Shown: positions 1 through 13,382 of the stretch, in pieces
Layout: the number at the start of each line of letters is the position of its first letter
Numbering within the stretch: the first letter of the stretch is position 1
Source: Pirellulaceae bacterium
Lineage (GTDB): Bacteria; Planctomycetota; Planctomycetia; Pirellulales; Pirellulaceae
Length of the DNA: 13,382 nucleotides
Direction: 5' to 3'
Assembly (NCBI GenBank): GCA_013002105.1
Contig: JABDKS010000403.1
Span: 1-13,382 of the forward strand
Translations under genes and position numbers: made by a program
The notes under the pieces: model-generated
The model's input: only the letters and a program-made list of their open reading frames with translations
Database searches by the model: none
Told to the model about the DNA's origin: nothing

Positions 1-409
1 ACCTGGACCACCGGAAGCGTTGTTCATCGAATCGCCCAGCTGCCGGTTGGCCTAGAAAGTGGGTCGAGATCCGATTCTCGGACAATTCAAACCGACACAG
101 TTGTTGGATCCGCTGCGACTGGGTCCAACCGCGTGTTCCACTGACCGCGCCGCTGAATGAAAAGCCACCGTGGAATTCCACACTTTGGTTTTCCGGGCAG
201 TGGATCTGCCATTTGTAGAAAGTATTGTCATCGGTTGGCACACGACGGATCGCGAATCGACTGGAATCATCGATACGGAGCGCACCGTGAATGGTTACGA
301 GCCGATCGTACCGAGCACGCAGCACAGTATGTTGTTTCTGTTGCCCAAAGAGCATCAGGGCGCCCACGATCGTAAGCGTCAACAAAATCAGATGCAGAAT
401 TTTTTTCAC
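1..409 (-). CDS. Unrecognised membrane-anchored protein, 3' end cut by window edge
   Basis: Read on the minus strand, a GTG at 409-407 opens a frame that stays open for 136 codons to the window edge. An in-frame TAA lies at 424-422, so 409 is the first possible start. The predicted N-terminus is two lysines followed by a strongly hydrophobic stretch at about residues 4-22 (ILHLILLTLTIVGALMLFG), which looks like a signal anchor or uncleaved signal peptide. The remainder is hydrophilic, with no internal membrane segment. I recognise no family motif, so the function is unknown. The next Met is codon 19, inside the hydrophobic segment, which makes it a poor start. No good Shine-Dalgarno site is visible. 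It is divergent from the spermidine-synthase-like gene and may share its control region. The frame is judged real because of its length, its membrane-anchor N-terminus and its fit with the divergent layout. Confidence 0.68.
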   Translation of the reverse strand, partial: MKKILHLILLTLTIVGALMLFGQQKQHTVLRARYDRLVTIHGALRIDDSSRFAIRRVPTDDNTFYKWQIHCPENQSVEFHGGFSFSGAVSGTRGWTQSQRIQQLCRFELSENRISTHFLGQPAAGRFDEQRFRWSR

Positions 410-473
410 GAAGGCTGCAGGTTAGAAATCACGCGGCATTGGCAACACGTCGTTTATTGTAGGCGCCTTTGCG

Positions 474-502
474 AACCGACGCGCGGTCACGACACGTCGG
501 TT
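474..502. promoter_or_regulatory. 8-bp inverted repeat in the divergent spacer
   Basis: The 101-base spacer between the two divergent starts holds the perfect inverted repeat aaccgacg (474-481) and cgtcggtt (495-502), with a 13-base loop. It ends 8 bases before the ATG at 511. A related half-site, acacgtcgtt, lies at 445-454. This could be an operator or a small hairpin over the translation start region. No convincing -35/-10 pair was found, and an 8-bp repeat can occur by chance. Confidence 0.25.
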
Positions 503-510
503 GCGGTAAC

Positions 511-1281
511 ATGGTTGCACCGGCGAGCTTCTCTGGCGCGTTCGGTAAGTACTCCCAACAGGCGGCTGAATCTGTGAGACCATCGAAATTCGAGATTCTT
601 GCCTACGAAGACACGTCGTTGGGTCCACTCTGTCTGCGTCGTCGAGAACTATTGTCGCAACCGGGAACGATTGTCACGGAAGTGACATTGAACCACGAGT
701 TCTTGATGAGCAGTTTCAACACGGATTCGGAGCGTGCGCTTTCCACTCGATCGGTGGAAATCCACGGTGGGAGTGAGCTCAAAACACTAGTGGGTGGTTT
801 TGGGTTGGGTTATACAGCCAGAGAATTGCTGAACCAATCACAGGTACGGTCAGTGGAGGTGATCGAGTTTTTGCCGCCAGTGATCGACTGGCTGCGAGAT
901 GGTTTGATTCCGTTGTCAGATGAATTGAATGCCGCTGAAAACTTGCGGATCACACTCGGAGACGTTTACGAATATTTGTGGGGCGCTGCGGAAACAAAGT
1001 TTGATTTGATTGTGATCGACGTCGATCATTCGCCCGGCGATCAGTTGGCCGAGGAGGAACACGCGTTTTATACGCGTGAAGGGTTGGGCCGTGCGAAAAC
1101 GCATTTGCGACCCGGCGGCGTATTGGCGGTATGGTCCTATGCCGAGAGCAGTTCGTTTTCGGACGCACTGCGCGACACTTTCTGCGACGTGCAATTGGAA
1201 CCGATATGTACGTTCAACTCGTTGGTGGGCCATGAGCAAACCGATTGGTTGTTTTTTGGACGCGACGACCCCGTGGAATAG
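511..1281 (+). CDS. Spermidine-synthase-fold (SAM-methyltransferase-like) protein
   Basis: 256 residues, cytoplasmic, no signal peptide. The Rossmann nucleotide loop is VGGFGLGYTA at about residues 94-103. It is followed by acidic VEVIEF at 115-120, the LGDVYEY motif at 149-155, and FDLIVIDVDHSP at 164-175, the usual order in the spermidine synthase/SAM-methyltransferase fold. True aminopropyltransferases carry a D-S-S-D-P type motif at the last position. Here it reads D170-V-D172-H-S-P, so spermidine synthesis is doubtful and the substrate is unknown. The start is uncertain: ATG 511 is used here, but GTG 574 (residue 22) has a purine-rich AGGCGG 8 bases upstream and lies just before the conserved-looking KFEILAYEDT block. 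TTG 469 is less likely. The UbiA gene follows 116 bases downstream on the same strand. That gap shows no clear terminator or promoter. Confidence 0.82.
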   Translation: MVAPASFSGAFGKYSQQAAESVRPSKFEILAYEDTSLGPLCLRRRELLSQPGTIVTEVTLNHEFLMSSFNTDSERALSTRSVEIHGGSELKTLVGGFGLGYTARELLNQSQVRSVEVIEFLPPVIDWLRDGLIPLSDELNAAENLRITLGDVYEYLWGAAETKFDLIVIDVDHSPGDQLAEEEHAFYTREGLGRAKTHLRPGGVLAVWSYAESSSFSDALRDTFCDVQLEPICTFNSLVGHEQTDWLFFGRDDPVE

Positions 1282-1385
1282 CGTGACCCGTTCACCATGT
1301 CGCGGCAAAGCCTCGACGACGCTGGTTCGTTACGTTGTAGCGATAAATCAATGAATGACTCATCGGCCAACATGACGGTTGCACC

Positions 1386-1390
1386 AAGGA
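1386..1390 (+). promoter_or_regulatory. Ribosome binding site that fixes the UbiA TTG start
   Basis: AAGGA lies 7 bases before TTG 1398. An in-frame TGA at 1356-1358 bars any distant upstream start, and the ATG codons at 1351, 1355 and 1372 are all out of frame. Confidence 0.6.
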
Positions 1391-1397
1391 TCCCAAT

Positions 1398-2255
1398 TTG
1401 TCCGCATTGAATCGTTTGCTTGAGACAATCAAGGTCGCGCGGCCGGGATTTTGGCCGACACATTATTGGTTCTACCTGTTGCCGTTCGCCGGCCGCGACA
1501 TGTTTTCCACGCCTGCCTTTTGGCTAGGCAGCATCTATGTCTGCTTTCCTTTGGGGCTGTTGCTTTATGGCTGGAACGATCTGGGGGATACTACGAGCGA
1601 TCAATACAATCCACGCAAGGATAGTTGGTTATTCGGAGCACTGCCTGACGCATCGTTGCGGCGACGACTACCGGCCATTATCGCGGCGGTTCAGATACCA
1701 TTTTTGATCATGTTCGTTGGATTGGCAGGCGCGAAGATGATTGGCTGGTTTGCTGCGGTCCTGTTTGTCAACGCGACCTACAACTACTGGGGCTTCAAAA
1801 AATTGCCGGTCTTGGATTTACTCAATCAGGTCGGTTATCTGCTGATATTCGTTCTGGCCAGTTGGCTCTGTGATGTACCACAGTTGAACACGGCGGCGAT
1901 GTTATTCAGCGGACTGTTTGCGATGCAAAGCCATCTGTTTGGTCAATTGATGGACATCGATGAAGACCGCATCGCGGGTCGGCATTCGACCGCCATCACG
2001 ATGGGCGTGCGACCGGCAAAATTGTTGCTTGTGGCGATCATGGTGACCGAAAGTGTCATCGCTTACTACCATTTTCAGTATGCCGTCGTAGCTGGTTTTA
2101 TGGCGCTCGGTGCGATTTTCTTTTTGATTGACGCGGCGTTGGGGCCGCAGCGGTATCCCGTCTGGTTTGCCCGTTGGTTCTTCATCGCCTGGAATTGCGT
2201 TGTGATCACATCGATGTACTTTGTGTGGCGATATGAAGTCTTTTTGACGTCCTGA
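1398..2255 (+). CDS. UbiA-family prenyltransferase
   Basis: 285 residues, integral membrane protein of the UbiA superfamily, which transfers polyprenyl groups from a diphosphate donor to an aromatic or other acceptor (quinones, haems, chlorophylls, lipids). The first Asp-rich motif is N60-D-L-G-D64-T-T-S-D68, matching the N-D-x-x-D-x-x-x-D that binds Mg-diphosphate. The second is D186-I-D-E-D190-R-I-A-G-R, followed by HSTAITMG, also typical. Several hydrophobic helices are evident, e.g. around residues 41-58, 92-108, 114-130, 142-158, 203-224 and the C-terminus. Length is normal for the family. Translation begins at TTG with AAGGA upstream. The acceptor cannot be told from the sequence. No quinone or haem biosynthesis gene is adjacent, and the spermidine-synthase-fold neighbour gives no clear clue. 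Confidence 0.9.
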   Translation: MSALNRLLETIKVARPGFWPTHYWFYLLPFAGRDMFSTPAFWLGSIYVCFPLGLLLYGWNDLGDTTSDQYNPRKDSWLFGALPDASLRRRLPAIIAAVQIPFLIMFVGLAGAKMIGWFAAVLFVNATYNYWGFKKLPVLDLLNQVGYLLIFVLASWLCDVPQLNTAAMLFSGLFAMQSHLFGQLMDIDEDRIAGRHSTAITMGVRPAKLLLVAIMVTESVIAYYHFQYAVVAGFMALGAIFFLIDAALGPQRYPVWFARWFFIAWNCVVITSMYFVWRYEVFLTS

Positions 2256-2313
2256 TGTTGACGGGCGAAAAGGTTTCCGTCGCGTTAGAATGAAGTGTTG
2301 AAAAGTTTGTCTG

Positions 2314-2332
2314 AGTCGTTGAATCGACGACT
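2314..2332 (+). other. Small stem-loop upstream of the ceramidase-like gene
   Basis: agtcgt (2314-2319) and acgact (2327-2332) form a perfect 6-bp stem with a 7-base loop, 31 bases before ATG 2364. There is no T-run. It lies in the 108-base gap after the UbiA gene, which may hold a leader. The short stem could be chance. Confidence 0.2.
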
Positions 2333-2363
2333 TGGGTGTGATTCATTCTCGAAAGGTGTTGGG

Positions 2364-3821
2364 ATGCTAGGCCGATCTGATGTTTTAAGATTGATGTGGA
2401 TTGGTTGCTTGGTGATTCCGATGTCACCGGCGTTGGCCGACGACGCGGGAGCGAGCGATCGTGCTGCCGGACCGCAAGCTGGCAAGGTTTTGCGTGCCGG
2501 CGCGGCGGTTGCTGATATTACGCCGCCGTTGGGTGAGGAGGTTGTGGGCGGTTTCGCTCCATTTCCAGCGACGGAGATTCACGATCGTTTGCACGCGCGC
2601 TGTTTGATTCTGGATAATGGCGAAACGACGATCGGGTTTGTGATTTGCGACAACCTGGGTATACCGCATGACGTTTTTGATGCAGCTCGTGAACAGATTG
2701 CGGCGCAAAGCAAGCTTCCCGTTGAGAATCTGTTGATGGCGGCGACTCACACGCATTCGTCGTGTCGAGCGTCGACGGGAAAGTATCGGCCGATTTTGAT
2801 AAGTGGAATTGTCGATGCCGTGATAGAAGCGTTCGCGAATTTGCAGCCTGCGAAAATTGCCTGGGGAGGAATCGATGAGCCATCCGAAGTGTTCAATCGA
2901 CGTTGGTACGTGAAAGACCCCAAGCATCGGACCAATCCGTTTGGTGGCATCGACACCGTGCGAATGAATCCGCCTCGGGGTAATCCGTCCTTGCTGGAAC
3001 CGGCCGGTCCGGTTGATCCAGAAATCTCGTTTATCAGCGTGCAGTCCATCAGTGGTCGACCCATCGCGCTACTGGCAAACTACTCGTTGCACTACGTTGG
3101 CGGCGTGAACAAGGGTGATGTGTCGGCCGATTATTTTGGAATCTTTGCCAATCAAATCGGATCGATGATCGGCGCCACGCCCAACGACAAGTTTGTCGGC
3201 ATGTTGTGTAACGGGACAAGTGGTGATGTGAATAACATCAATTTTCGAATCAGTTCACGCGAGCAATCGCAGGTCTATGCGAAATACGAAAAAATGACCG
3301 AGGTGGCGAATAAGGTTGCCAGTCGAGTCGCCCAGGCACATCAGGAGTTGAAGTTTCAAGATTGGGTTCCCCTTGGGTCACGTCGCAGCGAGTTGAAGAT
3401 GAAGATGCGGAAACCCGACCAGCAACTGCGGGAGTATTTTGAAAACGTGATGGCACAAGACGAGGACGCACCGCGCCATCATCGATACGAGCGAACCTAC
3501 GCGGCGCGAGTGCAGCGATTGCAGGAGGGCCCCGACGAGATCATGATCCCATTGCAGGCGATGCGGATTGGGGACTTAGGTGTCGCGGCGATCCCGTTCG
3601 AGGTGTTCACAGAAATCGGTCTGGAGATCAAAGTTCGGGCGCCACTGGACGATGTATTTACAATTGAATTGGCAAATGACTCGCGAGGTTACTTGCCGAC
3701 ACCGCGGCAGCATAAGCTCGGGGGGTACGAAACCTGGATGGGGACCAGTCGAGTGCAATTGGATGCGTCGGAGTTGATCGTGGATGAAATTATCTCGCTG
3801 ATGGAATCATTGCACGACTGA
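2364..3821 (+). CDS. Secreted neutral/alkaline ceramidase N-domain protein
   Basis: 485 residues. A signal peptide (LRLMWIGCLVIPMSPALA, about residues 8-25) predicts export. The body matches the N-terminal domain of neutral/alkaline non-lysosomal ceramidases: AGAAVADITPP at 45-55, EIHDRLHARC at 71-80, zinc-type ATHTHSS at 127-133, and YSLHYVGG at 240-247. The block NGTSGDVNN spans 283-291, where bona fide ceramidases have GDVSPN with the nucleophilic Ser. That Ser is Asn here (N290), so amide hydrolysis of ceramide is uncertain. The protein is shorter than typical ceramidases and appears to lack their C-terminal immunoglobulin-like domain. Start: ATG 2364 is chosen for its position before the signal peptide and GAAAGG 8 bases upstream. 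The in-frame GTG 2295 would add 23 residues before the signal. The substrate is unknown, perhaps a lipid or another amide/ester. Confidence 0.88.
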   Translation: MLGRSDVLRLMWIGCLVIPMSPALADDAGASDRAAGPQAGKVLRAGAAVADITPPLGEEVVGGFAPFPATEIHDRLHARCLILDNGETTIGFVICDNLGIPHDVFDAAREQIAAQSKLPVENLLMAATHTHSSCRASTGKYRPILISGIVDAVIEAFANLQPAKIAWGGIDEPSEVFNRRWYVKDPKHRTNPFGGIDTVRMNPPRGNPSLLEPAGPVDPEISFISVQSISGRPIALLANYSLHYVGGVNKGDVSADYFGIFANQIGSMIGATPNDKFVGMLCNGTSGDVNNINFRISSREQSQVYAKYEKMTEVANKVASRVAQAHQELKFQDWVPLGSRRSELKMKMRKPDQQLREYFENVMAQDEDAPRHHRYERTYAARVQRLQEGPDEIMIPLQAMRIGDLGVAAIPFEVFTEIGLEIKVRAPLDDVFTIELANDSRGYLPTPRQHKLGGYETWMGTSRVQLDASELIVDEIISLMESLHD

Positions 3822-4026
3822 ACGGTGCAGGGTCGCGTTTGGCGGAGACACTGCGAACACGATTGGTATTGACCCTCTGAGACGGGGCGGTCGTGCTGCT
3901 TGTCCCCCATTGAAAGTGTTGATTTTTCGCTTTTTGCACCAGCGATCGTCGTTATCGTTTTGCAAGGGAGGCAGCTTTCGACGATATTCGTTCCTACATC
4001 ATTGAGCGTTTCCCAAGATTATTTGC

Positions 4027-4030
4027 AGGA
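4027..4030 (+). promoter_or_regulatory. Ribosome binding site favouring GTG 4037
   Basis: AGGA at 4027-4030 abuts the possible TTG start at 4031, which is too close to serve it. It lies 6 bases before GTG 4037, so GTG is the better start. Confidence 0.5.
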
Positions 4031-4036
4031 TTGACC

Positions 4037-5290
4037 GTGAGCGAGACCATCGATTTTACAGATCGTGACGATATCGAAGGAGAAACAGAAGCTGCGCCGC
4101 CGGAATTGTATGCGGCGAACTTAGTGGAGTGGGCCATTGATCGTTATGCCAGTGATTTGTTCGTAAGTGATGCCGAACACTGCGTGGTGGTATCGGTACG
4201 ACGATTGGGAAAAATCGAAGTGGTCCGTCGGCTAGCTCGCAACTACGGTCGCCGGTTGCAGGGGCACCTGCGCGTCTTGGCAGGCGCGGATGCGGGAGAA
4301 ACGATTCGTCCCTCCGATGGCCGCGCTGTCATGCATATTCCCAGCGGCCGCGACATCGATATGCGACTGAGTTCTATTCCGACGTTGTTTGGACAAGACA
4401 TCGCAATTCGGCTGTTTGATCCAGGCGATGGGTCCAGGTCCTTGGAAACGCTTGGCCTGGATCGTCATGAAATGAGCGCGGTGGACCATCTGTTAGATTT
4501 GTCGGCGGGGCTCGTGTTATTGACGGGTCCGACCGCGAGCGGCAAATCCAGCACGCTGTACGCAATGCTTGAGCGGATGAATGACGGGACCCGAAAAATT
4601 CATACGCTGGAGGATCCAATCGAGCATGCGCTGGAGAATGTGATTCAGACGCAGGTCAACTTGCGTGCCGGGCTGGACTTTGCAGATCTCTTGTCGGTTG
4701 TGCTTCGGCACAGTCCTGACGTCATTATGATTGGCGAAATTCGGGATGCACGCACTGCAGCGACGGCGGTTCGCGCCGGGGCGAGTGGTCAGTTGGTTTT
4801 GGCCACCGTTCATGCCAAATCGGCTGCCGAGGCGGTCGATTCGATGTTGCACTATCAAACCAACCCAAAATTCTTGGCCAGTGCGTTGATTGGCGTGATC
4901 AATCAGCGGCTGGTACGAAAACTTTGTTCGAATTGTCGTCAGCCTTTGGAATTGGATCAACCTGTGCCGATGCCCGAGCACATTGCCTATCGGCTCGATG
5001 GTCGCCAGCCCACGTTGTACAAGCCGGTGGGATGCCAAGAGTGTTTCAAAGACGGTTTTCAAGATCTGACTTGTATGCCAGAAATCATGGTCGTCAATCG
5101 AGAGCTTTCCGAGGCGATTTCGCACGGCGCGTCCTCTTACGAATTGGAAGCTCTGGCGCGGCAACATGGCATGCTGACGCTGGGCGACAGCGCGATGATC
5201 CGCGCACTATCGGGAGTTACGACGCCACAAGAAGCGAATCGTCAAGTGTTCAGCTCTGAACTGGCCGAACTCTCGGGCCTCTATCACTAA
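4037..5290 (+). CDS. GspE/PulE/PilB-type secretion ATPase, short and solitary
   Basis: 417 residues, cytoplasmic. Proteins of this family power type II secretion or type IV pilus assembly. Walker A is GPTASGKSS (about 164-172), the Asp box lies around THTLEDPIEH-like HTLEDPIEHA (189-198), Walker B is DVIMIGEIRD (228-237), and the His box is ATVHAKSA (His 259). Two Cys pairs, LCSNC (297/300) and GCQEC (333/336), match the zinc loop of GspE/PilB and exclude PilT, which lacks it. The N-terminal N1 domain of full-length GspE/PilB is missing. The N2 region is diverged: ASDLFVS replaces the usual A-S-D-I-H-x-E, and RRLGKIE stands where R-x-D-G is typical. The segment LAGADAGETIRPSDGRA still follows the family pattern. 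No pilin, GspD, GspF or PilM gene is adjacent. The 215-base gap upstream suggests its own promoter, though none is clear. The 3' end faces a convergent gene. Confidence 0.92.
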   Translation: MSETIDFTDRDDIEGETEAAPPELYAANLVEWAIDRYASDLFVSDAEHCVVVSVRRLGKIEVVRRLARNYGRRLQGHLRVLAGADAGETIRPSDGRAVMHIPSGRDIDMRLSSIPTLFGQDIAIRLFDPGDGSRSLETLGLDRHEMSAVDHLLDLSAGLVLLTGPTASGKSSTLYAMLERMNDGTRKIHTLEDPIEHALENVIQTQVNLRAGLDFADLLSVVLRHSPDVIMIGEIRDARTAATAVRAGASGQLVLATVHAKSAAEAVDSMLHYQTNPKFLASALIGVINQRLVRKLCSNCRQPLELDQPVPMPEHIAYRLDGRQPTLYKPVGCQECFKDGFQDLTCMPEIMVVNRELSEAISHGASSYELEALARQHGMLTLGDSAMIRALSGVTTPQEANRQVFSSELAELSGLYH

Positions 5291-5322
5291 CGGGTGGCGG
5301 CCCCACGATCGATCGCTACCCG
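5291..5322. terminator. Possible bidirectional hairpin terminator between convergent genes
   Basis: cgggtggcg (5291-5299) pairs with cgctacccg (5314-5322): a 9-bp GC-rich stem with one G-U pair and a 14-base loop. It starts directly after the TAA of the ATPase gene and lies 51 bases from the stop of the opposing gene. No T-tract follows on either strand, so it is not a textbook intrinsic terminator. Confidence 0.42.
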
Positions 5323-5373
5323 AGTCTGCGCACGCATTGGTTGCGGCAAAATACGAGAATTTCCGCTCGCTGA

Positions 5374-6855
5374 TCATTCACTGGGAACGTAATTGAGCGT
5401 GTAATAAGCTTCGGCGTGCAGCAGCGGCGTGTCGGTTGCGGAGCGAACACCATCCGCATGCAGTTCGTGAACGTGTCCCACTTGCAGGCCATCAACGTAC
5501 AACCGTACGCTTTTTCGATCGGAGCCGGCGACTGCTCGTGTGATCGCCGGTGCGGTGTGGTCGACTTCGGGGCTGCCGTATGACGATTGGTAAATGTAGG
5601 TGTACGTGCTCAGTTCGTACGAGTCGGCGTTCTCCACCGACTTTTTGTCGACAGGTTTGGTAAACGTTAATTCAAACCCGTCTGGCATGGCACGCATCTC
5701 ATGAATTTCAAAGGGAACCTTGCCGGTCCAATCAACGCGTTCGACAGCGAAAGGTTCTCTGCCACGCGATCCCCAGCCGCGGTTCGTTCCACCGACAAAC
5801 AGTTTGCCGTTGGGTGTGAACTCCAAACCCAGCGATCCGCTGTCGAATCCTTCTAGGAATGGAAAGCAAGCACCTTGGTAATGACCGTTGACCTTTTCTA
5901 AGTAACATCGCATGACCGTGCTGTAGGACTGATCGGTCACGAACATTTGGTTTACAAACGGTCCAAATTTCCCACCGGTGGTATCACAGGCCACGCCGGC
6001 GGCCGACTTGCCCATTTTGTTGTACGGAAACAGGATGGCTGGAGGTTCGAATTTGGGCAGTCGCTCCGCTTCGGTCATGATCCGACTGCCGCTGGTTGGT
6101 TCGTCAGGTTGCTTGCCCATGAACGATTCGGCTAACGAATACCATTGCATCCCGCCGGGATGGCCAACGAACTTGCCATCGACCAGATGTTTCAGCGAGC
6201 ATGTTCCATTCCACGGTCCCTGATTGTCCGTGTAAAACATGTCACCGAGGTGATTGGCACCGATTCCACCGGGTGACCGTACACCGCTGCAAGTGGGAAT
6301 CAGTTTACCGTCGGCCGTGACTCGCACGCACCAGCCTCGATAGGGGACCTTGCTGGAAAAAGATCCGGTCAAACAGAGCACGACCCAAATGTCACCGTTC
6401 TTGTCAAATTTGGATCCAAACGCGTACTCGTGGTAATCACCTGAGATTTCCCAACCGTCGTTGACGATTTCGAAGTCGTCGGCCTGTCCATCGCCATCGG
6501 TATCGCGCATTCGTGTCACATCGGATCGCTGCGTTGTATAAAGCCATCCATCTCGCTGGGCCAGCGTCAGCGTTTCGTGCAATCCATGTGCAAACCGTTG
6601 GAACTGCGACGGGCTGACTGTCTTGGCAAAGGGATCGTGGATCATCCAGATCTCGCCGCGTCGCGAGCAGACCGCCATCTTGCCATCGGGCATCAACTGA
6701 AATCCGCTGGCTTCCAAAACCACGCCTTCAGGCGTTTGAAAGGTCGTAATGGGATAATAGTCAGCTTCGCTGGGCGTTTGCTGCGCATCGGCGGTCGCAA
6801 CCATCGCGGTGGCCAAGAGGGCGATACAAAGAATCGGTTTCATGCTCTTCATCAT
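5374..6855 (-). CDS. Exported beta-propeller protein, soluble-dehydrogenase-like
   Basis: 493 residues. A signal peptide ([20 protein letters not shown], residues 5-24) predicts export. The body reads as a six-bladed-type propeller like those of PQQ-dependent sugar dehydrogenases and planctomycete membrane-bound-dehydrogenase proteins: [17 protein letters not shown] (54-70), a calcium-loop-like [10 protein letters not shown] (118-127), DKNGDIW (151-157), [20 protein letters not shown], and [17 protein letters not shown]. The C-terminal roughly 100 residues (from [20 protein letters not shown]) look like an Ig-like/SbsA-type beta domain. There is no CxxCH haem motif, although relatives often carry a cytochrome domain. 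The gene upstream, 19 bases away on the same strand, carries five haem sites and could be its electron partner. I cannot confirm PQQ binding or the substrate. Starts at 6855, 6852 or 6843 all keep the signal peptide; no strong ribosome site chooses between them. Confidence 0.85.
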
Positions 6856-6874
6856 TTCAGTGTGGCGGCGTTGT

Positions 6875-9800
6875 TTACCAGATGATTTCTTGGGTGATGG
6901 TCGTTGACCCGGCAATTGGAATCAAGACTTCGGAGGATCCATCTCGTTTGCGGATGATCGGTTTTGCGCCATCGGATTGGATGCGGATGGTGACGGTGTC
7001 GTCGACCAGAAAACCACCATCAGGCAGGGGCTGTACATTGCCTGCTGCAGCACGAAAGTAGACCGTGCCGGCGATGTCCACTCCTTCGATGGGCGTGACG
7101 ATTAATTGACGGTCAAACGTGCCGCCCAGATCGCCGGCGACCGGGATCAATTTGTCTTGGACGTTAGCCACCACCGCGTTGTACCGAAAAGTGGGGCGGC
7201 CCTGTTTGTCCAACCGATATCCCAAGAAGCGATAGCCACGTTCTTTAGCAGACGTGGTGGGCCAGTTCGTTTCCAGATCTTCCAGCACCGCGATGGGGGA
7301 TACCGATTCCCATTTGGTGACCCCGCCTCCGAGCGGACTTTGTGTGCCTTGTCCACGTCCGTCCCAATGTTTTGACGCGTCGATGAAACGGTCTTGCCAA
7401 ATCAACGCGAGCGACATTTGGTTTGCGTCCCAGCACAAGTTGGCTTTCTCGGGATAGCCCACGGCAATGCCGCGTGGTGAGACGCCTTCGATAAAGTTTC
7501 GATAGAGGATCGGCCGGTCGATCGGTTTCAATTCCTTCATTCCACCGACGATGCCTTCGGGAACACCGCCGTCGGCACCCTTTTCCAGAAAGGCCCAGAT
7601 CGCGGACAGTTGTTTGGATTGGTGGCCGTCGTAGATATTCATGACCGTACTTTTGCCTTCCGGGTATCCGGTGGGCATGCGTGTTCCGGGACGGTATTGC
7701 TGAGGGTTGGGTAGATAGCGGTGAAACCAGTCTTCACGAATTCGCTTGGTCATCGTATCGAGCGCGATCGCTTGGATACCGGACGATTTAAATTCGCCGT
7801 ACGTGTGGCAACTGACGCAAGCGAGCCCCTTGGACCCGACCAACTGACGACCCAACGTCACGCGTTTTTTGGGCGTGTCAGCGATCGGTGTGATTTCCGC
7901 CTCGGTGCGTTGATCCAATGAGGCAAAGATTTTGGCAAGGTGGCCGGCGTTTTTCTCGCCGAATCTAGGCATATAGGTTTTCATGTACGGTCGGCTTTTG
8001 TCGCCCTTGCTGACCACGTGGTGAATCCAGTCCTCGCGAAGCTTGTCACCGACACCGTCCAGCGGTGGTGGCAGTCGACCTTCGTCTCCCATCTCGGGAA
8101 TCGTACTTACGAAAACCGAATTGCGATCCGATTCGGATCCACCCAGGCCATCACGCTCGTGACAGGCGTAGCAGTTGAGTGTTTTCATGGTGTGGACCAA
8201 CCGCGCGTCGGCTGTGAATGGTTCGGCCGGTTGCCCGGCACGCAGCGCCGCTGCGAGCGCGTCGGTTTGGACACTGGTGAGGTCGTAGTCGGGAGTCGAC
8301 GTTGGCTCCGCTGACAAGCAACCTTTGGAAGCATCGCAATCGACCAGTGCCGGCGCGGTGAGCGACGATGACATCGGTTTGCCATCGTCATTACGAACAT
8401 GACAGGCGGCGCACCCCAGTTGAGAAAACAGTTGACGCCCTTGTTGGGCGATTGCTTCGTTGTAGACGTACGAATCAGATTCGTCATCCGATGACGCAGG
8501 TTCCTGGTCAGTCGGCGTTGGCGAATCGACGGAGGTTGCTGACTGTGTCGCTACGGCCGATTCACGGTCCATGACGATCGCGTGATCAAGTCGACCGGGT
8601 TGAACACCCGGTCCGGCCCAGTCCAGCGTCAAAGATTCTTCACCGCCGCTTTCAAAATATTCCACGCGGATCGCATGAACTCCCTTCTTGAGTTTCAGCG
8701 TTTTTTCTTTGAAGGAATGCGGATGAACACCGTCGTTGTCGATGACTCGTTTACCCGCGATATACAGCATGCTACCGTCGTCCGAGCCCAGGCGAAAACT
8801 ATACGAACCGGTCTTCGCGATGGGTAGAAAACCGTCAAATCGCAGGATCACATCGCTGTTTCGCTGGCCAACACTGATGTCGAGTCCGCGCGACACGCCG
8901 GTCTTGTCGGGTGTCATGCCGTCTAATTTGGGCATCTGACTGACGCCTTTGTAGTAGGCGGCGAATCGCATGTTCGGTTCTTCGGGCAAATGACGCTGAT
9001 CGCCAAAGTCGATTGTGGTTGTATCACCGGTCAAATATTGGGCGATGTGTCGTACGTTCTCTTCCGCAAGATTCAATTGCGGCATCCGGCCGGATGGACG
9101 AACAGCTAATGGGTCTTTGAGAAACTGCTCCAGGCTGGCACGGCTGTACTTTTCCTCGATGCCGACGAGCGGAATTGACGTCGCTGCATTGACCTTTTTG
9201 TCGTTCCGCGCCAGATGGCAAGCGACGCAGCCCGATTCGTGAAAGAGCGTTGCACCCTTGATGGGGTCACCACTGTCACCGCTACTGACAATGGTGTCCT
9301 GACCAACCAGAAAATGAGTCAGTGCGATTGCAGCCTCGGTTCGTTGTAGGCTGCTCATTTCGGCTAACACATCTGGCATCGTAGTACCTGGTTTGACCGC
9401 GTGTGGATCGGCCAGGTACTTCATCATCCACTCGGGATGCACCCGTTCGCCGACCTTGTCCAAGTTGGGCGCTTTTTTTGGTTGGACCAAGCTAGCGAGT
9501 TGTTCGGGCGCGGCATGGCAGGCGACGCAATTCAACTCGCTCAGCAGGAGTCGGCCACCGTTGACGCCATCGCCGGCAGCGGAATGAAACCGTTCAAAGG
9601 CTGGGACGATGGGTCGTCGAGCTTCGGCCTGGAGGTCGCGCGGGCGCACCCAAATGTTTCGATAGCGAACGGGGTTGCCATGATCTTGCAAATAGATCGG
9701 TCCGTTTTCGGGACCTTCCTTGACCGGCGCGGCCGTTGTCGATTTGGGCAGCTCCACATCACGGTGAACGACAACACCATTGAGTTTGACGGTGATCCGC

Positions 9801-10519
9801 GCATTAGCGGTTTTTTTGCCGTTCGAATCGAAGCGAGCCGTCGTGAAGTCGACGTCGTATGTTTGCCATGTCAGTGGCGGCAAACACATGTTCAAATCGG
9901 GCGCGCGAATCGAATACAGGCCACCGGTTTCATTCATCTTGCCGTCGAGTCCGAACGAATCGAGTATTTGAGTCTCGTAGCGACCTTGATGGTACAGACC
10001 GCTATTGCCACGTCCTTGTCCGCGTGCACCGGGTGCGAACGGCGTTCGGAATTCCAGGTGGAGCGTGTAGTCACCGAATGTGTCGATGCTTGTACACCCT
10101 TGAACCAACAATCCGTCGTCAGTGATCTTCGCTCCGTCTTTCCAATGTTCATTTAGACTCTTCTGGCTTCCGTCGAACAGCACGACCGATCCGCTGGGAG
10201 GTTTGGCTCCAAGGGATGGGCTTTGACGATTGACTCGTTTGAAATTGCGCAGCAGCGTTTCCAAAGTAGCGTCGTCGACTTCGATGCTTTTTTTGTCTTT
10301 GCCATTCCAGCCGGCACCGGGCAAACCGTCTGTGTAGGTGACCACCTGAAATTCACCGTCACCCATCGCGATGACTTGCAGCCCGCGGGTCGTGTCGACG
10401 TACTCACCTTGCAAAGCAAAATCGGGATCCTCCATCGCTTGCTCGGGGGTGTCGTAAACCTGACCAAAGCAGGTTGCCGCAGTCGTGGTGATTATCCAAA
10501 CAAGAAGTGCAGGTCGCAT
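6875..10519 (-). CDS. DUF1080 + five c-type haem sites + PA14 multidomain exported protein
   Basis: 1214 residues, exported (signal [20 protein letters not shown], 1-20). Domain order: N-terminal region; DUF1080/3-keto-disaccharide hydrolase (about 108-295) with the hallmark [19 protein letters not shown] (170-188); two cytochrome c domains (CVACH 331-335, CVACH 431-435); PA14 carbohydrate-binding-type domain (about 515-650) with [14 protein letters not shown]; a linker rich in Ser/Thr/Asp/Glu (650-685); three more haem sites (CAACH 703-707, CYACH 783-787, CVSCH 901-905); and a C-terminal beta-rich region (about 985-1214). Likely distal Met ligands are M381, M479, M850 and M948, each in an M-P pair, so the third or fourth haem has another ligand. 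The repeats RVHPEW, KLREDW and RIREDW show duplicated haem modules. ATG 10519 is chosen because it begins the signal peptide; 10552 would add 11 residues and lies out of signal register. The protein probably joins glycoside binding and cleavage with electron transfer. Confidence 0.92.
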
Positions 10520-10764
10520 CGCATCGAGGGTGCTAAAGTGGGGCGGGGGCATCGGGCGAACAGAATGTCGTCGTGCCAATCGGGTAGGTAGATAGTGGGC
10601 AGTGCCAGGCGGCCTTCGAACAACCCGAGTGTTATTATGATCCAAGTTGGCTCGAATTGCACGGCCGGGTTTCATCGCTGACAGCGAAATGGTCCGGCAG
10701 TGCGGGCTACAATATCGCATCACCACTTGCTCGAACGCATGAAAGCCTATTGGAGAACTTGCCC
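10520..10764. promoter_or_regulatory. Divergent intergenic control region
   Basis: These 245 bases separate two exported-protein genes that point away from each other, so promoters for both should lie here. Weak candidates seen are TACAAT at 10708-10713 on the plus strand (no good -35 at 17 bases) and, on the minus strand, CATAAT (10639-10634) with GTGCAA (10662-10657) at 17-base spacing. Both are poor matches to sigma-70 consensus. No strong inverted repeat or riboswitch-like structure was recognised. The in-frame open extensions of both genes into this region look non-coding. Confidence 0.35.
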
Positions 10765-11769
10765 ATGAATCGTGGCTCGAACCGACACCGTTTCCGATCG
10801 ATCGGCATGACCGCCGTGCTCTATTGGGCGCTCGTTGCTGGGACCGCCGGCGTGGCCGCCGAGACGGCCGCCGAGATGAAGATCGATTTACGAGAATCCG
10901 CAGGGGAGGTCATTGTCACTGCCGATGGAAAACCATTCACCCAATACGTCTACGCGGGCCATGCGAAACCCATTTTGTATCCGGTCATCGGTCCGCACGG
11001 TGTACCGATGACCCGCAATTATCCGATGGTCGATGGCGTTGATAACGAAGCCAGTGACCACCCGCATCACAAATCAATTTGGTACACCCATGACGACGTC
11101 AACGGAGTCAAGTTTTGGGCCGAGTATGACAAGAACAATCAAGCGGTATTCGGAAAGATCGTGCAGACGAATCTAAAGCTGCAAGAAAATGAAATCCACT
11201 GCGAAAACCAATGGCGGTCGCCCGACGGAGAGGTGGTCTGTAGCGACTCACGCGTGATCGGATTTGGGGCGTCCCCGACGCACAGAATTATCGACTTTGC
11301 GATCACCTTACGGGCGACTCACGGCGACGCGGTCTTTGGTGATACCAAGGAAGGATCGATGGGGATCCGGACACATCCCCTGTTGCGATTACAGGACGAT
11401 AAGAAACGTGGTAACCATACGGCCAAGGGACAGGCCGTCAACAGTGAAGGTGTCGAGGGGAAAGCGATGTGGGGCAAGCGTGCAAAATGGGTCGATTATT
11501 GGGCACCCATCGATGGGCATACGGTGGGAATTGCCATCATGGATCATCCCAGTAATCCGCGGCATCCGACGTGGTGGCACGCCCGATATTACGGGTTGAT
11601 CGCTGCGAATCCATTCGGCATTCACGACTTTGAAAAGAAACCGGCAGGTACCGGCGATATGACGATCAAGGCAGGCGAGAGTATTACCTTTCGCTATCGG
11701 TTCCTGTTGCACAGCGGGGACGTTCACGAAGCAAACGTGGCACAACAATATGACGAATTTGCGAAGTAA
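10765..11769 (+). CDS. PmoA-family (DUF6807) exported protein
   Basis: 334 residues. An N-terminal signal (RFRSIGMTAVLYWALVAG, about 9-26, ending near GVAAE) predicts export. The body matches the family labelled 'methane oxygenase PmoA', now DUF6807: ADGKPFTQYVYAGHAKPILYP-like opening (53-72), GPHGVPMTRNYP (76-87), DHPHHKSIW (98-106), GSMGIRTHP, and the C-terminal RYYGLIAANPFG with GESITFRYRFLLHSGD. The PmoA label is misleading: it is not a subunit of particulate methane monooxygenase, which is a membrane protein. In planctomycetes such genes often sit near sugar oxidoreductases, suggesting a role with carbohydrates, but no reaction is established to my knowledge. ATG 10765 is preceded by TGGAG 9 bases upstream. 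The open frame reaching back to 10657 lacks a better start. It opens the plus-strand group that continues with the dipeptidase 74 bases on. Confidence 0.87.
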   Translation: MNRGSNRHRFRSIGMTAVLYWALVAGTAGVAAETAAEMKIDLRESAGEVIVTADGKPFTQYVYAGHAKPILYPVIGPHGVPMTRNYPMVDGVDNEASDHPHHKSIWYTHDDVNGVKFWAEYDKNNQAVFGKIVQTNLKLQENEIHCENQWRSPDGEVVCSDSRVIGFGASPTHRIIDFAITLRATHGDAVFGDTKEGSMGIRTHPLLRLQDDKKRGNHTAKGQAVNSEGVEGKAMWGKRAKWVDYWAPIDGHTVGIAIMDHPSNPRHPTWWHARYYGLIAANPFGIHDFEKKPAGTGDMTIKAGESITFRYRFLLHSGDVHEANVAQQYDEFAK

Positions 11770-11819
11770 TCGTTCGCGCCGCGTGTTTGGTGGGACCCGA
11801 TAAGTTTTTGATCACAAAC

Positions 11820-11850
11820 AGGAGTTCGCTCGATGAGCCAGATATGCTGA
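11820..11850 (+). promoter_or_regulatory. Strong ribosome site with 5-codon leader frame overlapping the dipeptidase start
   Basis: AGGAG (11820-11824) lies 8 bases before ATG 11833, the best ribosome site in the window, yet that ATG opens only MSQIC and stops at TGA 11848-11850. The dipeptidase ATG 11844 lies inside this mini-frame in another phase. Ribosomes ending at the TGA could restart 4 bases back, coupling the two. Alternatively the gene once began at 11833 and a small indel shifted the phase. Confidence 0.35.
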
Positions 11851-12908
11851 TTTTTGATGCTCACCTTGATCTGAGTTTGAACGCGATCGAGTACAACCGT
11901 GATTTGCGGATGTCGATCGACGACTTGCGCCGCGCTGAACAAGGGATGGACGATTTGGCTGGCCGCGCGCGGGGGACGGTTTCGTTTCCCGAGATGCGCA
12001 AAGCGGGCATTGGTCTTTGCGTTGCAACACAGTTGGCCGGATGCATGAAACCGGCTGCCCCGGTGGGTGCTTGGAACTCGCCGGAACAGGCGTGGGCGAT
12101 GACGCAGGGTCAATTAGCTTGGTACCGAGCGATGGAATCCGATGGGCAGTTACGGCAAATTTGCGATTCACTGGCACTGCAGGAACACTTGGCTTTATGG
12201 CAGGCAAACCCTGATTCGGCACCCATTGGTTACATGTTGAGTCTGGAGGGGGCCGATTCGATTCGAACGTTGTCGGATTTAGAACATTCTTACGAGCAAG
12301 GTCTGCGAGCGATGGGCCCGGCCCACTACGGTGTTGGTCGTTACGCATTAGGTCACGACTGCGATGGCCCGTTGTCGTTGGCCGGCCAAGATTTGATCCG
12401 ACAGATGGATCGTTTGAATCTGATTTTGGACGCGACGCATTTGTGCGAGCAAACGTTTTGGCAAGTGTTGGAGATATACCAAGGACCGATTTGGGCAAGT
12501 CATCACAATTGCCGATCGATTGCCGATGATCCTCGGCAATTGACGGATCAGCAGATCAAAGCCCTGGCTCGCCGGGGCGCGGTGATTGGAGTGGCGTTGG
12601 ATGTGTGGATGGTCGCACCGGGGTGGGTTCGTGGAAAAACAACCCACCCCACTCCAGGCGGTGACTTGAATGGTTTAGCCGACCACGTCGACCACATGTG
12701 TCAGTTGTTAGGGACAACCAAGCACACCGGGATTGGGACCGATCTGGATGGTGGTTTTGGCACCGAACAAACACCAAGCGATTTGGACACAATTGCCGAT
12801 TTGCAACGACTGTTCGAGATCCTGCGTGGTCGCGGATACAGCGACGAAGACATCGAGCGGATCAGTCATCGCAATTTCATTGATTTTCTCATCCGAGCCT
12901 GGTCTTAA
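11844..12908 (+). CDS. Membrane-dipeptidase-type metallopeptidase, family M19
   Basis: 354 residues, zinc dipeptidase (renal dipeptidase family) that hydrolyses dipeptides, in several members those ending in a D-amino acid. Predicted metal ligands are in place: FDAHLDL (H7, D9), SLEGAD (E135), LDATHL (H199), ASHHNCR (H220) and GIGTDLDG (D300). The motif ISHRNFIDF closes the domain, as usual. There is no signal peptide or lipobox, so it is probably cytoplasmic, unlike secreted relatives. ATG 11844 is used because MLIFDAHLDL matches the normal N-terminus; in-frame GTG 11787 or TTG 11805 would add unlikely residues. Its stop is 3 bases before the next start, so the two genes are almost certainly co-translated. 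Substrate preference for L-D dipeptides is inferred from that neighbour. Confidence 0.93.
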   Translation: MLIFDAHLDLSLNAIEYNRDLRMSIDDLRRAEQGMDDLAGRARGTVSFPEMRKAGIGLCVATQLAGCMKPAAPVGAWNSPEQAWAMTQGQLAWYRAMESDGQLRQICDSLALQEHLALWQANPDSAPIGYMLSLEGADSIRTLSDLEHSYEQGLRAMGPAHYGVGRYALGHDCDGPLSLAGQDLIRQMDRLNLILDATHLCEQTFWQVLEIYQGPIWASHHNCRSIADDPRQLTDQQIKALARRGAVIGVALDVWMVAPGWVRGKTTHPTPGGDLNGLADHVDHMCQLLGTTKHTGIGTDLDGGFGTEQTPSDLDTIADLQRLFEILRGRGYSDEDIERISHRNFIDFLIRAWS

Positions 12909-12911
12909 TTC

Positions 12912-13382
12912 GTGAACAACCCCATAGACTGGATCGAAGTCACCAATCTCCAGCAGATTGATTCGCCCGGACTGATCGTCGATTTCGACCGGGTCGAACG
13001 CAATATTGCTCGGATGGTCGCGATGGTCGACGGCAATGCGGATCGCCTGCGACCACACGTGAAAACACATAAGATGCCCGACGTGATCCAAATGCAGTTG
13101 GATGCCGGGATCAAGCGTTTCAAAGTGGCGACGTTGGCCGAAGCGGAGATGGTGGCGATAGCGGGCGGAACGGACATCCTGCTGGCGCATCAGGTGGTCG
13201 GCCCCAAGGTCGACCGCCTGTATCGTTTGGTCCAAGCTCATCGCGAAGCCTCGTTTGCAGCGATCGTGGATGATCCGGATATCGCAACGGCGATCGCAAA
13301 TCAATTCAGCAGCGACGCTCTACCGCTGCGATTGTACGTCGATGTAGATTGTGGGATGCAGCGAACGGGTATCCGGCTGGGG
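12912..13382 (+). CDS. D-threonine aldolase / D-serine dehydratase-type PLP enzyme, 3' end cut by window edge
   Basis: The first 157 codons of a fold-type III (alanine-racemase-like) PLP protein; the frame stays open to the last base. It begins at GTG 12912, 3 bases after the dipeptidase stop. DSPGLIVDFDRVERNI (17-32) is the usual opening strand, and RPHVKTHK (47-54) carries the PLP-binding lysine, K51. Further family marks are ATLAEAEMVAIAGGTDILLAH-type helix-strand (about 73-92) and VDVDCGMQRTG, where D-threonine aldolases have an arginine-bearing strand near the pyridine ring. Members cleave D-threonine/D-3-hydroxy amino acids or dehydrate D-serine using PLP and a divalent metal. The metal ligands lie in the missing C-terminal part, so the two cannot be told apart. 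A role after the dipeptidase in D-amino acid breakdown is inferred. Confidence 0.92.
   Translation, partial: MNNPIDWIEVTNLQQIDSPGLIVDFDRVERNIARMVAMVDGNADRLRPHVKTHKMPDVIQMQLDAGIKRFKVATLAEAEMVAIAGGTDILLAHQVVGPKVDRLYRLVQAHREASFAAIVDDPDIATAIANQFSSDALPLRLYVDVDCGMQRTGIRLG

Follow-up and report, generated by a model that had tools for sequence, protein, structure and literature searches.

A planctomycete fusion of DUF1080, PA14 and five haem c motifs with a propeller partner gene: a possible part in carbohydrate oxidation outside the cytoplasm

In the Caulobacter lactose pathway, periplasmic oxidation by LacABC is coupled to a DUF1080 enzyme, which is a separate protein (excerpts of PMC9007349). Among the DUF1080 entries of the PDB matched in our structure search, those whose titles specify a reaction (9fbe, 8rr2, 8v31 and 8tda) are either eliminase/hydratases of 3-keto-glycosides or hydratases of 3-keto-2-hydroxy-glucal, and the chains of these enzymes (with BT2157, 3osd) span ~240-280 residues, too short for extra domains. 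Cytochromes of the Planctomycetes, Verrucomicrobia and Chlamydiae (PVC) that bear carbohydrate-binding modules or PA14 are also in print, their function given as unknown in excerpts of PMC5615132, and PMC10628242 deals, in its excerpts, with enzymes of another fold. Here we analysed a stretch of 13,382 nucleotides from a Pirellulaceae bacterium (contig JABDKS010000403.1, positions 1 to 13,382, hereafter the window), in which one gene joins a DUF1080 domain, a PA14 domain and five haem c motifs in a single chain (the cytochrome fusion) and is followed by a gene for an exported-looking beta-propeller.

Tentatively, we read the cytochrome fusion as a scaffold that binds sugar and conducts electrons within a secreted device of three parts, with which planctomycetes would oxidise carbohydrates. 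The anatomy of the chain, its conservation, the gene linkage and the different arrangements in which these pieces recur across genomes were computed and are described below. As in Caulobacter, the window pair may tie oxidation outside the cytoplasm to DUF1080, a similarity that we propose by analogy; unlike LacABC and its separate DUF1080 enzyme, the window pairs a pentahaem fusion with a gene for a propeller. With the planctomycete-specific cytochrome (PSCyt) fusions and the TIGR02604 PVC-type haem-binding proteins, the window shares the PA14-cytochrome combination and, in its propeller, a weak match to TIGR02604 (34.2 bits against a cut-off of 122.2); it differs from them in that the propeller is a separate gene without a haem motif, and no PSCyt or PSD model was among the Pfam matches of the window at E<=0.1. 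The components are already known. No published description of a DUF1080-cytochrome fusion turned up in open-access full texts (subscription papers lie mostly outside this coverage), and the excerpts of PMC5673643 describe none.

Anatomy and conservation of the cytochrome fusion

The longest frame of the window (6875-10726, minus strand) is open throughout, and a start of the cytochrome fusion at ATG 10519 agrees with the signal-like sequence that follows, as judged by eye. A first-pass annotation had read DUF1080, two haem sites, PA14 and three haem sites in one exported chain: Pfam and the positions of the CxxCH motifs bear out the order, and export agrees with the signal-like N-terminus, a by-eye judgement of the sequence only. 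To this order we add a small N-terminal domain (NTD), a C-terminal domain (CTD) and the downstream propeller gene (Table 1). Pfam matched the chain to 3keto-disac_hyd (PF06439; E 8.8e-33, 114.4 bits against a cut-off of 26.8), PA14 (E 1.9e-16, 60.7 bits against 24), Cytochrom_C (residues 421-496) and Cytochrome_CBB3 (residues 778-860). Residues 21-120, which hold the NTD, had no Pfam match, and the CTD had none over cut-off, its likeness to DUF6797 being weak (E 0.064, 14.5 bits against 24.9). An AlphaFold2 model of the mature chain reached a mean predicted local distance difference test score of 88.5, and a structure search with this whole-chain model barely covered the CTD.

Table 1. Coordinates of the features discussed (window positions unless a locus is named)
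Feature	Position	Strand	Remarks
Cytochrome-fusion gene	6875..10519	-	1214 aa, NTD-DUF1080-haem2-PA14-haem3-CTD; stop codon 6875-6877
Signal-like N-terminus	10460..10519	-	residues 1-20; called by eye from sequence and alignment
NTD	10220..10462	-	residues about 20-100; also with some standalone DUF1080 proteins
DUF1080 / 3keto-disac_hyd (PF06439) domain	9644..10189	-	residues 111-292; Pfam and structure comparison
Haem c site 1	9515..9529	-	CVACH, residues 331-335; candidate distal Met381
Haem c site 2	9215..9229	-	CVACH, residues 431-435; candidate distal Met479
PA14 domain	8603..8866	-	residues 552-639; invariant Asp580-Asp581
Haem c site 3	8399..8413	-	CAACH, residues 703-707
Haem c site 4	8159..8173	-	CYACH, residues 783-787; conserved Met810 and Met850 downstream
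Haem c site 5	7805..7819	-	CVSCH, residues 901-905; candidate distal Met948
CTD, beta-rich	6878..7567	-	residues 985-1214; strongly conserved
Propeller partner gene	5374..6855	-	exported-looking beta-propeller, PQQ sugar dehydrogenase fold, no CxxCH
Single-chain DUF1080-GSDH-type propeller fusion	L102 985-2946	+	
Single-chain DUF1080-GSDH-type propeller fusion	L103 782-2662	+	
Single-chain DUF1080-GSDH-type propeller fusion	L104 1101-3272	-	

A protein search scored 7988 candidates, of which 1989 passed at E<=1e-3. A survey of domain architectures, which the first-pass annotation had proposed, found DUF1080, PA14 and both cytochrome Pfam models together in all 120 listed proteins (of the 1989; the window's own included). 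These counts led us to reject both a one-off fusion and a chimera made by the assembly. Of 137 relatives from a genome scan, the best 80 (the related loci, to which all locus counts below refer) all carry planctomycete titles, some at phylum level only. Since all listed proteins share the architecture and the titles are planctomycete throughout, it is ordinary within the phylum.

Shuffling the protein 20,000 times gave a mean of 0.005 CxxCH motifs and a maximum of one. All 114 sequences of alignment A2 keep all five CxxCH as well as Met381, Met479, Met810, Met850 and Met948. This alignment combines the window with 113 of the 119 relatives listed besides it, P0005 and five shorter sequences having been taken out by hand; a smaller one, A1, holds the window and 23 of the 119, and A4 to A7 were built from hand-chosen loci. 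Judged by their spacing after sites 1, 2 and 5, which is usual for distal haem ligands, Met381, Met479 and Met948 are candidate ligands, and Met810 and Met850 are candidates for sites 3 and 4. Among the 67 main open reading frames (ORFs) clear of the locus edges, 65 have five CxxCH, one has six (L028) and one has three (L045, a 623-aa ORF near the start of its contig); the 13 that touch an edge have five (9 ORFs), four (3) or three (1). The six-motif version, from Roseimaritima (L028 8525-13525, plus strand), has a putative length of 1667 aa and carries its sixth CxxCH along with ~500 extra N-terminal residues. With its repeated CxxCH, conserved ligand candidates and exported look, the chain fits the pattern of multihaem c-type cytochromes, and haem loading is predicted.

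DUF1080 domains are jelly rolls that also resemble CBM66. The domain of the window has the fold of the solved DUF1080 proteins (at 23-24% identity to the eliminase/hydratases) and, in the structure search, matches DUF1080 structures better than CBM66. Signature residues that the window-type domain shares with its counterparts in L102 and L103 are invariant, and these counterparts match eliminase/hydratase entries in the PDB. As for the residues needed in characterised keto-glycoside hydrolases, on which the first-pass annotation had made its proposal depend, the family signature is intact; the catalytic residues themselves are named in none of the excerpts of PMC9007349, PMC5673643, PMC10881899 and PMC10628242. 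In the PA14 domain, the Asp580-Asp581 pair is found in 78/78 core rows; such a pair is the calcium site of Flo5-type PA14.

These observations bear on an alternative explanation, namely that the protein is a sugar-binding respiratory cytochrome, in which DUF1080 and PA14 would do no more than bind carbohydrate, the chain being a glycan-tethered electron carrier without a cleavage activity of its own. Against it stand the better match to DUF1080 structures than to CBM66 and the invariant signature shared with L102 and L103, domains that themselves match eliminase/hydratases. We consider this explanation somewhat unlikely.

The propeller partner and its cofactor

The ATG of the propeller gene (6855) lies 19 bp past the stop codon of the cytochrome-fusion gene, and a propeller gene usually accompanies the cytochrome fusion downstream in the related loci. 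Its product has the fold of the pyrroloquinoline quinone (PQQ) sugar dehydrogenases (GSDH, PF07995; 3a9g, 2ism, 2g8s). PF07995 itself was not matched by the window propeller at E<=0.1, DUF7133 was matched at 24.7 bits (cut-off 27), and no real relative came up when the propeller profile was run against PDB sequences. When the propeller was aligned with GSDH sequences, including E. coli YliI, by hhalign (probability 82%, 160 columns), propeller Arg194 fell opposite the Arg of the GSDH R-N-P motif.

The PQQ-site residues of soluble GDH are His, Arg, Asn and Gln. In contrast to the PQQ sugar dehydrogenases, the window propeller has Ser in place of the motif Asn; it also has Gly in place of the YliI Gln, which the planctomycete GSDH rows do not keep either. 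Weighing against an oxidising propeller, the catalytic GSDH His could not be placed in it by hhalign or by three MAFFT modes. In hhalign, YliI His147 falls opposite propeller Asp141. Two MAFFT modes pair it with Glu144, the neighbour of the invariant His143; the third mode puts it elsewhere and also misplaces the Arg. The propeller alignment (A3) combines the window with 47 of 119 further listed propellers, and every fourth row of it was used in the MAFFT check. It is in the light of the unplaced His, set beside the shared fold and the aligned Arg, that we consider a propeller that is no dehydrogenase at all, but a binding or lactonase-like subunit, with the haem protein fed by an unrelated donor; we regard this as distinctly unlikely.

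We also searched for PQQ synthesis in the genomes of 26 of the 80 loci, i.e., those of relatives rather than the window's own, many of them drafts. No genome of the 26 had PqqE over cut-off, weaker radical S-adenosylmethionine matches being present in 26/26 genomes and in 14/14 controls, none over cut-off. PqqC was found in 0/26, and no control matched in that search. In a phylum sample, 6/199 genomes matched PqqC at E<=1e-3; one of the six, G123, matched strongly in two adjacent pieces (112 and 110 bits, both below cut-off), which shows that the search is able to detect the gene. Because PqqC was not found, PqqE did not exceed cut-off and the catalytic His was not placed, PQQ is doubtful as the cofactor: the propeller may use scavenged PQQ, another cofactor or none. 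Four of the genomes (G004, G013, G016 and G018) carry 5 to 14 PF07995 matches each, despite the same outcome for PqqC and PqqE. No paper on planctomycete PQQ turned up among open-access full texts.

DUF1080 as a movable module, and the surroundings of the locus

The main reason for thinking that the three pieces serve one job is that they are found rearranged in other genomes. At least part of DUF1080 is present in the cytochrome chain in 45/80 loci; the other 35 lack it, some from cut contigs. A core tree of 78 rows, in which L054 was scored as having DUF1080 although it carries the domain in an overlapping ORF of its own, requires five changes of DUF1080 state, and one change once four contig-cut rows (L027, L041, L043 and L047) are set aside, a result on which we rejected a DUF1080 that comes and goes freely. 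The 31 DUF1080-less rows, among which L048, L076 and L080 reach the edge of their contigs, form one group (Shimodaira-Hasegawa-like approximate likelihood ratio test, 98). The tree is quick, with long branches and a root for drawing only, so that the direction of the change, gain or loss, is not readable from it.

Module searches among the 26 genomes covered PF07995 in 4, PF06439 in 6 and alignment A6 in 11. In a DUF1080-less Fuerstiella genome (G022), no propeller lies beside the cytochrome locus (L056); the genome's propeller gene is instead 24 bp past an NTD-DUF1080 gene that stands alone and belongs to the same subfamily. Thalassoglobus (L022) has both forms, the standalone NTD-DUF1080 gene being just upstream of the fused one. 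A direct fusion of DUF1080 to a GSDH propeller, in a shared open frame, occurs in G004, G013 and G018, at least 3 of the 4 genomes in which PF07995 was searched. Three such single-chain fusions (L102, L103 and L104) are listed in Table 1; in their host genomes, too, PqqC was not found and no PqqE exceeded cut-off. All 8 DUF1080-less genomes searched carry a relative of the subfamily elsewhere (best E 4.4e-110 to 1.4e-93, some without the NTD). The six genomes searched with PF06439 hold at least 27-54 matches each, and because this family is so large, the mere presence of a relative says little.

The propeller aside, no neighbouring family occurs in more than 12 of the 80 loci, the most recurrent being a BamB-like propeller (12/80) and a sulfatase (11/80). 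For annotation, a single member stood for each of the ten most recurrent neighbour families (one had no Pfam match at all); neither a GMC-type nor a Gfo/Idh-type dehydrogenase was found among these representatives or the window genes tested. A comparison with PHROGs gave no match. The remaining genes described in the window are all on the plus strand: a neutral/alkaline ceramidase-like protein (2295-3821; PF04734, E 1e-13), a type II/IV secretion ATPase that converges on the propeller gene (4031-5290; PF00437, E 4.1e-88), a divergent, exported-looking DUF6807 gene (10762-11769; Pfam, E 1.1e-67), whose like was found in only one of the related loci (L004; blastp, E<=1e-10), and, at 11841-13382, a membrane-dipeptidase gene of family M19 with an alanine-racemase N-domain gene after it, the latter cut off by the end of the window.

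Proposed function and its meaning

The first-pass annotation had suggested that the fusion holds substrate binding, cleavage and electron transfer together. The anatomy, conservation and gene linkage described above support this in part; every catalytic step, along with the direction of the electrons, the cofactor, the haem loading, the substrate and the location in the cell, is inferred. In the device that we propose, PA14 would hold the glycan, and the propeller, perhaps with a cofactor other than PQQ, would oxidise a hydroxyl of the bound sugar. The five haems would pass the electrons to a soluble cytochrome or an oxidase, and DUF1080 would eliminate and/or hydrate the oxidised (possibly 3-keto) glycoside, such that the bond breaks. 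That the sugar is oxidised at C3 is suggested by analogy only; the sugar dehydrogenases nearest in fold act on C1. In its most specific form, i.e., oxidise-then-eliminate glycan cleavage on a respiration-wired secreted scaffold, with a non-PQQ propeller of unrecognised cofactor, bond breaking by DUF1080 and electron removal by five haems, the proposal is unlikely to hold in every part.

It is improbable that DUF1080 is instead a direct glycosidase on ordinary polysaccharide, with the haem chain and propeller oxidising the released sugars: such a role was first proposed from transcripts for Thermogutta THTE_1561 (excerpts of PMC5673643), which acts on xanthan, lichenan and other glucans according to the excerpted part of a review (PMC10881899), but the reaction-naming DUF1080 entries cited at the outset are all eliminase/hydratases or hydratases on 3-keto substrates.

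The proposed scaffold offers a concrete hypothesis for such cytochromes, in which they would take part in oxidising sugars outside the cytoplasm and DUF1080 would work on what this oxidation yields. A question about the cofactor also arises for planctomycetes, in that dehydrogenase-type propellers are carried by genomes in which the PqqC search found nothing and no PqqE match exceeded cut-off.
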